From assembly GCF_022878925.1 (NCBI RefSeq), contig NZ_CP084626.1:1178001-1242000 (forward strand): a stretch of DNA of 64,000 nucleotides, read 5' to 3'. Below the pieces are notes generated by a model that did no database searches, was not told the DNA's origin, and saw only the letters and a program-made list of their open reading frames with translations. Positions within the stretch are counted from its first letter, which is position 1. The number at the start of each line of letters is the position of its first letter. A program made the translations under genes and the position numbers. Origin of the DNA: Caballeronia sp. TF1N1 (lineage in GTDB: Bacteria > Pseudomonadota > Gammaproteobacteria > Burkholderiales > Burkholderiaceae). This document shows, piece after piece, positions 51,864 through 53,704 of the stretch.

Positions 51864-51898
51864 CGAGGGCCGTTCATCGCGAACGGCCCTCGCTTTTT
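51864..51898. terminator. Bidirectional terminator between pcaC and the DUF3443 gene
   Basis: CGAGGGCCGTTC and GAACGGCCCTCG form a perfect 12-bp stem, followed by CTTTTT. The stop codon of the convergent DUF3443 gene lies inside the T run, so it can serve both strands. Confidence 0.88.
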
Positions 51899-53216
51899 AG
51901 AACGCGTAATACGGCCCGTTTCCTGCGGGCGTCGCGCGTCCTTCGAGCGCCGTGAACACGCGTCTACCAAAGAAGAATGGCAAGCCCCAGTCGAAGTATC
52001 CGCTCGACGGTCCGGCGAGATTGCTGAACGCAAAATTGCCGCTTGCGATCAACGTGGTCGATTGCGCGACGCTGAACGAGACGTCTGTCGTGATGCCGCT
52101 CGTCGAACGCACGGTCGCGCTCAAGGCTTGCGTCGCCGCCGGGCAATACCACGCGCCGCATGTCGTGATGCTCGTCGAAGGGAAGAACAGCCCATTCGAT
52201 CCGCTGTCGATGAAGCTCGTCCCATACTGACTGCCGCCGAAGCTCGTCGACACATAGCCGGAAGACGAACTCGATTTCAACACCGTCGCCGAGCCAAGCA
52301 GATTGTTCACCTGCGAACCGATGCCGAAGGTCATCGTCCCCGTGACCGCGGATGCGCCTGCGGCTGGAATGGCGGGGAGTTCGATCAGCACGCCGTTGTT
52401 GTCGGCGGCGAAGTTGGCGACCGGATTGGTCACCTGCTGCGCAACCGGCAAGCTGCTCGCCGTGCAACCGCCGCCCGCGTTGCAGGTGTAGTACCAGCGC
52501 GGCATGGCGGAGGCGGCGCAGCCCGCGCCGCAATCGGCGGTGAACGGACCGACGCCGAGAATGCCGTTGCCGCGCAGCTTCGATGCGTCGAGCATCGGCA
52601 GGCCGGACTGTGCGCAATCGGCGGGCGCCGTGGGCGTCGACGCATCGGCGATCAACTGCACGGAGGTTGCCCCCGCGACTTGGCCGGCGAGCCGCACATC
52701 GGCGGTGCGCACGGCGCCCCATGTGTAGCCGGTGCCAAACACCGAGCATTCGGCGACGATCCCGTTCGAACCGCTTGCCGCGACGAGCGGCAGCGCGATT
52801 TGCGAGTTCAGTGCCGACGCCAGCACGCGCAGCCCGTGCGAGCCGGTATCGACCTGGATGTTGTCGATGGTCTGGCAAGTATTCGTGCCCGGCACGCAGA
52901 TAGTGACGCTCGTCTGCAGCATGTTGCGCGTGCGAGTTGGCGTGCTGGTGACGGTGATGGTCTGCACGTTCGGCGTGGTCGATTGCACGACGGTGGTGGA
53001 GTCGGCGCTCGGTGCGGATGCCGCACTGGCGCTGCTGGCGGCGCTTGCCGCGGCCGGGACGCTTGCCGTGCCCGGCGCGCTGCCCGTCGCGGGCGCGCTG
53101 GCTTGTGCAGGTGCCGCAGGTGCCGGCGTGGCGCTGTCGGAACTGCCGCCACCGCCGCATGCGGTCAAGGCCAGTGCGGTGACGATAAGAAGCGTGAGAT
53201 GCGTGCGAATAGGCAT
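51897..53216 (-). CDS. DUF3443 lipoprotein with pepsin-like aspartic protease landmarks
   Basis: The ATG at 53214-53216 has GGAGG 6 bases upstream; the product has 439 residues. A lipoprotein signal ends L-T-A-C at Cys20, then comes an Ala/Ser/Pro linker to about residue 75. The rest looks like a two-lobed aspartic protease: V-D-T-G-S at 122-126 (IQVDTGSHGLRVL), a flap-like GTGYTWGAVRTADVRL (161-176), GILGVG (218-223), a second I-D-S-G-S at 336-340 (FIDSGSNGLFFP) and a C-terminal FDWGLPFFFGRRVF strand pair. Ten Cys residues follow the lipid Cys, suiting disulfides at the cell envelope. DUF3443 has no assigned function that I know. A DUF2844 gene lies 14 bases upstream. Confidence 0.88.
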   Translation of the reverse strand: MPIRTHLTLLIVTALALTACGGGGSSDSATPAPAAPAQASAPATGSAPGTASVPAAASAASSASAASAPSADSTTVVQSTTPNVQTITVTSTPTRTRNMLQTSVTICVPGTNTCQTIDNIQVDTGSHGLRVLASALNSQIALPLVAASGSNGIVAECSVFGTGYTWGAVRTADVRLAGQVAGATSVQLIADASTPTAPADCAQSGLPMLDASKLRGNGILGVGPFTADCGAGCAASAMPRWYYTCNAGGGCTASSLPVAQQVTNPVANFAADNNGVLIELPAIPAAGASAVTGTMTFGIGSQVNNLLGSATVLKSSSSSGYVSTSFGGSQYGTSFIDSGSNGLFFPSTSITTCGAWYCPAATQALSATVRSTSGITTDVSFSVAQSTTLIASGNFAFSNLAGPSSGYFDWGLPFFFGRRVFTALEGRATPAGNGPYYAF

Positions 53217-53230
53217 GCGTGCCTCCATCG

Positions 53231-53704
53231 TCATTGAATATCGGCGGTGGATACGCCAACTGGAAGCGCGCTCACGAGCCATGCGCGGCCACTGAACTCA
53301 CGCAGCCGCACGTGATTTTCGACGACGAGATCGCCATTCGCGATGCGCGTCGCGTGCAGACCGGCATCGCCCGACGAAGCGTTCGCGCCGTCCTTGAAGC
53401 GCTGAAAGTACGCGCCGAGCAGCGCTTCGGTGTCGGGCATGGCCGGTCCGCGCCAGGAGATTGCGTACACGGCGCCGCTGGCCGCGACGTATTCGCGCAC
53501 GACGATGCCGTTCGCGTCCGTCGTTTCGACGTAATCGAGCAGGCCGTGCGTCGATCGATGCGCGACGACCCCTGGCGAAAATACGGCGCTGCGCGCTATC
53601 GCGCCGAGTTGCGCTTGTGCAGGCGCGGCCATCGATCCGCCGAGCGCGATGCAAGCCGCCGCGAGGTAATGAGGATTTCTTAGCGTATGTCTTGGCGTAG
53701 TCAC
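53231..53704 (-). CDS. DUF2844 secreted protein
   Basis: The GTG at 53702-53704 has AGAGGA 5 bases upstream and gives 157 residues; another GTG seven codons earlier is less well placed. A signal peptide ends near A-Q-A (about residue 31). The mature part has the DUF2844 pattern: VVREYVAASGAVYAISWRGP, then LLGAYFQRFKDG and the closing REFSGRAWLVSALPVGV. The function is unknown. It is directly upstream of the DUF3443 gene, a pairing repeated in Burkholderia genomes, so the two products probably act together in the periplasm. Confidence 0.88.
   Translation of the reverse strand: MTTPRHTLRNPHYLAAACIALGGSMAAPAQAQLGAIARSAVFSPGVVAHRSTHGLLDYVETTDANGIVVREYVAASGAVYAISWRGPAMPDTEALLGAYFQRFKDGANASSGDAGLHATRIANGDLVVENHVRLREFSGRAWLVSALPVGVSTADIQ

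Follow-up and report, generated by a model that had tools for sequence, protein, structure and literature searches.

Sequence and predicted fold of the DUF3443 lipoprotein and its partner DUF2844 point to an undescribed envelope protease family

Overview

The window, 64,000 nucleotides (nt) of Caballeronia sp. TF1N1 (contig NZ_CP084626.1, positions 1,178,001 to 1,242,000), contains a two-gene unit encoding a DUF3443 lipoprotein and a small secreted DUF2844 protein, both labeled in Pfam as families of unknown function. DUF3443 is probably, at odds of roughly three in four, a lipid-anchored extracytoplasmic aspartic endopeptidase of the monomeric pepsin type (clan AA, bilobal), with DUF2844 as its dedicated soluble periplasmic partner. 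The basis of this assignment is a pair of invariant catalytic motifs, a predicted-fold match, profile-level homology to bacterial members of the pepsin family (A1), and a near-universal pairing of the two genes. The lipidation, disulfides, and catalysis of DUF3443, as well as the role of DUF2844, are inferred.

Catalytic motifs and predicted fold of DUF3443

The DUF3443 chain carries one D-T-G-S and one D-S-G-S motif, with D123 and D337 as the putative catalytic pair. The residues given in the original prediction for V122-D-T-G-S126, G161-TGYTWGAVR-T171, G218-ILGV-G223, and I336-D-S-G-S340 are all exact when counted from the ATG at 53216, and its final, unnumbered FDWGLPFFFGRRVF is located at F408–F421. 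Among the 81 stop-to-stop frames of at least 250 amino acids (aa) in the window, DUF3443 is the only one in which the pattern [LIVMFAC]-D-[TS]-G-[STA] occurs twice; since both Asp residues are also invariant in the alignments, the double motif is not due to chance.

Conservation was counted in 315 sequences, i.e., the window protein and 314 distinct relatives (duplicates removed from 342), the protein searches supplying only the best 120 matches each. D123 is Asp in all 314 sequences covering the position, and D337, G221, and G339 are kept in 315 of 315, so that the conservation of the two Asp residues, set beforehand as a test, held throughout. G411 is kept in all 314 covered sequences. Gly125 is found in 312 of the 314 covered sequences (Ala in the other two), and Ser338 is replaced by Ala in a single sequence. 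D123, S126, G128, N217, G218, G221, D337, and G339 are among the residues that are invariant in 38 diverse DUF3443 proteins, the most distant of which is 28% identical to the window protein.

The predicted model, based on an alignment of the window protein and 64 of the 72 other cluster representatives, consists of two similar β-rich lobes in a single chain, which is the fold of bilobal pepsin-type aspartic proteases. In the best 50 rows of each fold-search program, the whole model aligned with single-chain bilobal A1 enzymes. The second preset test, a double-lobed pepsin fold, thus gave the expected answer, and the stretch described earlier as flap-like is a β-hairpin in the model. Like pepsin and its bacterial relatives, which include shewasins A and D as well as proteins of the Bradyrhizobium type, DUF3443 is bilobal and has one D-[TS]-G-[ST] motif per lobe, a GILG psi-loop strand, and a flap hairpin. 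It differs from A1 enzymes in being a predicted lipoprotein with a linker and ten conserved Cys residues, in carrying Phe for the flap Tyr, and in being accompanied by DUF2844.

Relationship to bacterial A1 proteins

The profile–profile search proposed with the original prediction was run against an alignment of 33 bacterial A1 proteins (two genome proteins and 31 of 120 listed relatives). The profile of the 38 DUF3443 sequences aligned with it at an E value of 2.3e-6 and a probability of 89%, with the DTG, flap, GILG, and DSG elements in register. The score of 55.2 compares with at most 26.0 for column-shuffled controls, 14.5 for the reversed profile, and 14.3 for DUF2844. Two smaller DUF3443 sets gave weaker alignments (E values of 0.0018 and 0.0033, probabilities of 15% and 9.8%) that still exceeded their own shuffles. 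In the reverse direction, 15 of the 33 bacterial A1 proteins touch the DUF3443 model PF11925 at E ≤ 1, the best with 25.3 bits against a cut-off of 25. At the level of sequence profiles, these results support common descent of DUF3443 and the bacterial A1 proteins rather than a chance likeness. Yet the pepsin model PF00026 is matched by none of the 38 DUF3443 sequences at E ≤ 1; given this together with the profile-level homology, we treat DUF3443 as a putative new family that adjoins A1 but lies outside it.

Pepsin homologues are less rare in bacteria than the original prediction supposed. Of 299 genomes, five have a PF00026 match at E ≤ 0.001, four of them over the cut-off, and one bacterial A1 protein has 1519 relatives among 7997 scored candidates, numerous in comparison with the seven genomes of the 2009 census (PMC2761423).

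Predicted lipid anchor, linker, and cysteines

The lipid anchor proposed earlier is consistent with the lipobox LTAC-GGGG of the window protein, which was recognized by eye and from which lipidation is predicted. Among 80 related loci, the last 16 of which were also judged by eye, 64 have a strict lipobox followed by Gly, 14 have a less standard site that precedes Cys-Gly-Gly, one has Cys-Ser-Ser, and one is cut by a contig end. Envelope location would be the unusual part of DUF3443, since no signal peptide is predicted for any of the seven bacterial A1 proteins in PMC2761423; likewise, shewasin D is mainly cytoplasmic (PMC4814920). In four Duganella loci (L085, L089, L093, and L098), the encoded DUF3443 protein has an extended N-terminal region and reaches 570 aa. 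In L085, repeated Cys-containing segments, Ig-like by eye and without a Pfam match, lie between the lipobox and the enzyme domain, a position that would fit a stalk.

All ten Cys residues (107, 114, 157, 201, 229, 233, 245, 251, 353, and 358) are present in 293 of the 315 sequences. Cys229 and Cys233 are lost jointly in 18 sequences and never one alone, and Cys353 and Cys358 are lost jointly in seven and one alone in one, which is the pattern expected of disulfides. Cys107 and Cys114 are absent only in one truncated sequence. Other single losses affect Cys201 (three sequences), Cys157 (one), and Cys251 (three).

The DUF2844 partner

Pairing of DUF3443 with DUF2844, noted for the window, turned out to be near-universal: 119 of 121 distinct DUF3443 domains have a co-directional DUF2844 within 1.5 kilobases (kb). 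The partner was scored 5′ in 115 cases (median of 229 nt from domain to domain) and 3′ in four; among these four, L150 belongs to a tandem and has a partner of its own that is also 5′. For the remaining two domains (L037 and L080), the available sequence extends only 428 and 257 bases upstream, respectively. Across 398 genomes of the phylum, DUF3443 and DUF2844 exceed the cut-off in the same 10, two of which belong to other classes; an eleventh has only a sub-cut-off DUF3443 match in another protein.

Within 300 genomes of the order, DUF3443 occurs in 36 (35 over the cut-off) and DUF2844 in 31, all within the 36. Of 41 DUF2844 matches, 39 lie directly 5′ of a DUF3443 match; one (G430) is directly 3′, and one (G604 C152) has no DUF3443 match within 2 kb. 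Eight of 47 DUF3443 matches lack a 5′ partner: three from one genus (G430, G470, and G632) have DUF2844 3′ instead, three are incomplete, as gene fragments or at contig edges (G577, G661, and the second G576 piece), and two are sub-cut-off matches (G508, in another protein, and G544 C34). In the swapped loci of that genus (L115, L118, and L120), DUF3443 comes first with DUF2844 directly next, and the Pfam DUF2844 model misses the partner in two of the three.

DUF2844 has a cleavable-type signal peptide (APAQA-QLG) without a lipobox, both judged by eye. In 60 aligned sequences (the window protein and 59 of the 78 loci with DUF2844), Y41, W53, G55, P59, L65, G108, P117, and G119 of the mature protein are invariant. 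Its predicted model has four strands, a helix, and three strands, with a predicted local distance difference test score (pLDDT) of 80.6, and is least certain at residues 1–20 and 81–90. At L036 (4463–4983), the DUF2844 match extends over two overlapping frames, which may reflect a damaged gene or an assembly error.

Proposed mechanism

DUF3443 would be exported by the Sec system and processed at LTA-C20, giving the lipid anchor, and the flexible linker would keep the enzyme away from the membrane. Its fold may be stabilized by the ten conserved Cys residues, probably in disulfides. D123 and D337, one from each lobe, would come together where the two lobes join and activate a water molecule, while the 157–167 hairpin with F160 would close onto the peptide. 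DUF2844, encoded just 5′, would act in trans, most likely as a folding helper and/or inhibitor.

Generally, A1 enzymes are made with a prosegment that aids folding and blocks the cleft. DUF3443 has no recognizable prosegment, and a variable low-complexity linker occupies that place; shewasin D also lacks a visible one (PMC4814920). DUF2844 is a natural candidate for the prosegment's job because it is co-made, co-secreted, nearly always present, small, and encoded first, and it may have taken this job over, beside its possible roles as a substrate or delivery subunit. More tentatively, and with the odds against so specific a scheme, the two proteins might form an envelope protease system in which a lipid-tethered, Cys-rich pepsin has its prosegment function split off into a co-secreted DUF2844 that folds the enzyme and keeps it latent until the outer membrane or surface.

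Weighing the alternatives

Several observations weigh against the assignment of DUF3443 as a pepsin-type protease with a dedicated partner. Flap position 160, which corresponds to Tyr75 of A1 enzymes, is Phe in 306, Tyr in seven, and Leu in two of the 315 sequences. Of the hydrophobic-hydrophobic-Gly motifs that characterize each A1 lobe (PMC2761423), the N-lobe motif is present as I-L-G221, and the C-lobe place is mostly D-W-G411, with D409 in 250 of 315 sequences. The PROSITE A1 pattern fits neither Asp in 65 sequences and matches elsewhere in three. Foldseek TM-scores normalized by query length are only 0.49–0.55, with root-mean-square deviations of 5.8–11.2, indicating that lobe orientation or loops differ from those of known A1 enzymes, and PDB sequence searches with DUF3443 returned chance matches only. 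Co-loss gives no support for Cys157/201 or Cys245/251 pairs. The DUF2844 model has no confident fold match in the PDB, protease inhibitors and PepSY-type proteins included. Finally, the distances within the two families are correlated (Mantel r of 0.875; 1000 permutations reach at most 0.146), but tight linkage alone would also give such co-divergence.

DUF2844 might be the main substrate of the protease, or an accessory subunit delivering substrates, rather than a regulator; a secreted, small, adjacent product whose model is uncertain at its start and in one internal segment would suit this, but a folded domain with eight invariant residues would be superfluous in a dedicated substrate, and we consider this reading rather unlikely.

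It is less probable still that DUF3443 is a pepsin-fold protein that has given up cleavage in favor of binding a peptide, glycan, or partner. An analogy is provided by the TAXi xylanase inhibitors of plants (PF14541/PF14543), which are secreted, have a pepsin fold, do not cleave, and are not known to have a working catalytic pair. Their two models match 29 and 33 of the 33 bacterial A1 proteins, respectively, at E ≤ 1. The near-constant flap Phe and the strict pairing, which could mean a binding complex, are in line with this idea. Unlike TAXi proteins, DUF3443 retains both Asp residues; a dead enzyme would need neither these nor the invariant G339 and nearly invariant G125. Moreover, Phe also takes the place of Tyr75 in two of seven bacterial A1 homologues (Table 2 of PMC2761423).

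That the two motifs coincide by chance in an unrelated β-rich lipoprotein agrees with the absence of meaningful BLASTP similarity to one bacterial A1 protein (best piece of 12 residues, E value of 0.22) and of a PF00026 match, but it is already contradicted by the fold match, the invariant Asp residues, and the significant profile–profile alignment. A homodimeric retropepsin-type (A2) enzyme is just as improbable: weak matches occur among the 38 relatives (Asp_protease_2 in two, best E value of 0.0054; gag-asp_proteas in one, E value of 0.0097), but DUF3443 is not one lobe with one Asp, and two catalytic motifs on one chain and a whole model lying on bilobal enzymes bear out the original preference for a bilobal protease.

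Two large proteins are weakly matched by the DUF3443 model: L014 (G137 C33) has Asp_protease_2 over the cut-off beside Ig/cadherin-like and β-propeller repeats, and L155 (G508 C57) has Asp_protease_2 under the cut-off.

Gene organization and distribution

The features are listed in Table 1. The DUF2844 stop and the DUF3443 start are 14 nt apart, with TGGAGG, a purine-rich ribosome site containing GGAGG, just 5′ of the DUF3443 ATG; another such site, GAGAGGAA, precedes the GTG start of DUF2844. The pair is flanked on the plus strand by what we take to be pca (β-ketoadipate) genes and a BamC-like lipoprotein gene. Besides the pair itself, each shared neighbor occurs in at most 3 of the 21 regions compared. 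A terminator-like hairpin of 12 pairs with a T tail on the plus strand (window 51864–51892) sits between the end of a plus-strand gene (51832) and the convergent DUF3443 gene.

Table 1. Features of the DUF2844–DUF3443 unit in the window
Feature	Position	Strand	Basis
DUF3443 lipoprotein, 439 aa	51897..53216	minus	Pfam PF11925, 453 bits, E 8.5e-136; ATG start
DUF2844 secreted partner, 157 aa	53231..53704	minus	PF11005, 110 bits, E 8.5e-32; GTG start at 53704
Predicted lipoprotein signal peptide and lipobox L-T-A-C (Cys20), then Gly-rich GGGG	53157..53216	minus	sequence, by eye
Low-complexity Ala/Pro/Ser linker, about residues 21–79 of DUF3443	52980..53156	minus	sequence
First putative catalytic motif D123-T-G-S126, N-lobe	52839..52850	minus	aligned with DTGS of bacterial A1 proteins
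Second putative catalytic motif D337-S-G-S340, C-lobe	52197..52208	minus	aligned with VDSGTN of bacterial A1 proteins
Flap hairpin C157-xx-F160-...-Y164-T-W166-G167	52716..52748	minus	model β-hairpin; aligned with bacterial A1 flap region
N-lobe psi-loop strand G218-I-L-G-V-G223	52548..52565	minus	lines up with bacterial A1 GILGL
C-lobe psi-loop and final strands F408-DWGLPFFFGRRV-F421	51954..51995	minus	lines up with bacterial A1 ILGLPL in one of three profile alignments; the other two stop short of the region

The window's own genome has two DUF2844–DUF3443 pairs; further multi-pair genomes are G249, with two, and G322, with six. Two of the six in G322 are in tandem (L150), a lineage expansion. 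Paraburkholderia xenovorans LB400 (L054) has the pair as well. In PLSDB, five plasmid records from Burkholderia, Paraburkholderia, and Caballeronia (H1–H5), all predicted to be non-mobilizable, carry DUF3443 relatives, the best of which is 47% identical.

Comparison with known systems and implications

Full-text searches, which did not extend to subscription papers, preprints, InterPro, or MEROPS, where a clan assignment may exist, returned no paper on DUF3443 or DUF2844. An in-word search with the family names and the two Pfam accessions found only the string pf11005, in 11 papers whose titles concern Plasmodium. Searches for a Burkholderia pepsin-like lipoprotein, an AlphaFold-based aspartic peptidase, and a periplasmic pepsin homologue gave no title or abstract on DUF3443.

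The secreted RloA proteins of Pseudomonas aeruginosa (PMC12239564) are likewise aspartic proteases of a Gram-negative bacterium that carry a signal peptide, and the gene for one of them shares an operon with other genes. Unlike DUF3443, they are retropepsin-like, of a type described there as homodimeric, and the operon also encodes an inactive transglutaminase membrane protein and an ATP-grasp protein, in place of the DUF2844 found here.

Collectively, these observations point to an undescribed envelope protease family. If the assignment is true, thousands of proteins of unknown function (5683 of 7994 candidates scored match the DUF3443 profile at E ≤ 0.001) would become candidate envelope aspartic proteases, in contrast to the bacterial bilobal pepsins described so far, which have no predicted signal peptide. 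A large lipid-anchored pepsin branch would bear on the origin of secreted pepsins, and the strict two-gene unit would make the role of DUF2844 directly testable by co-expression.
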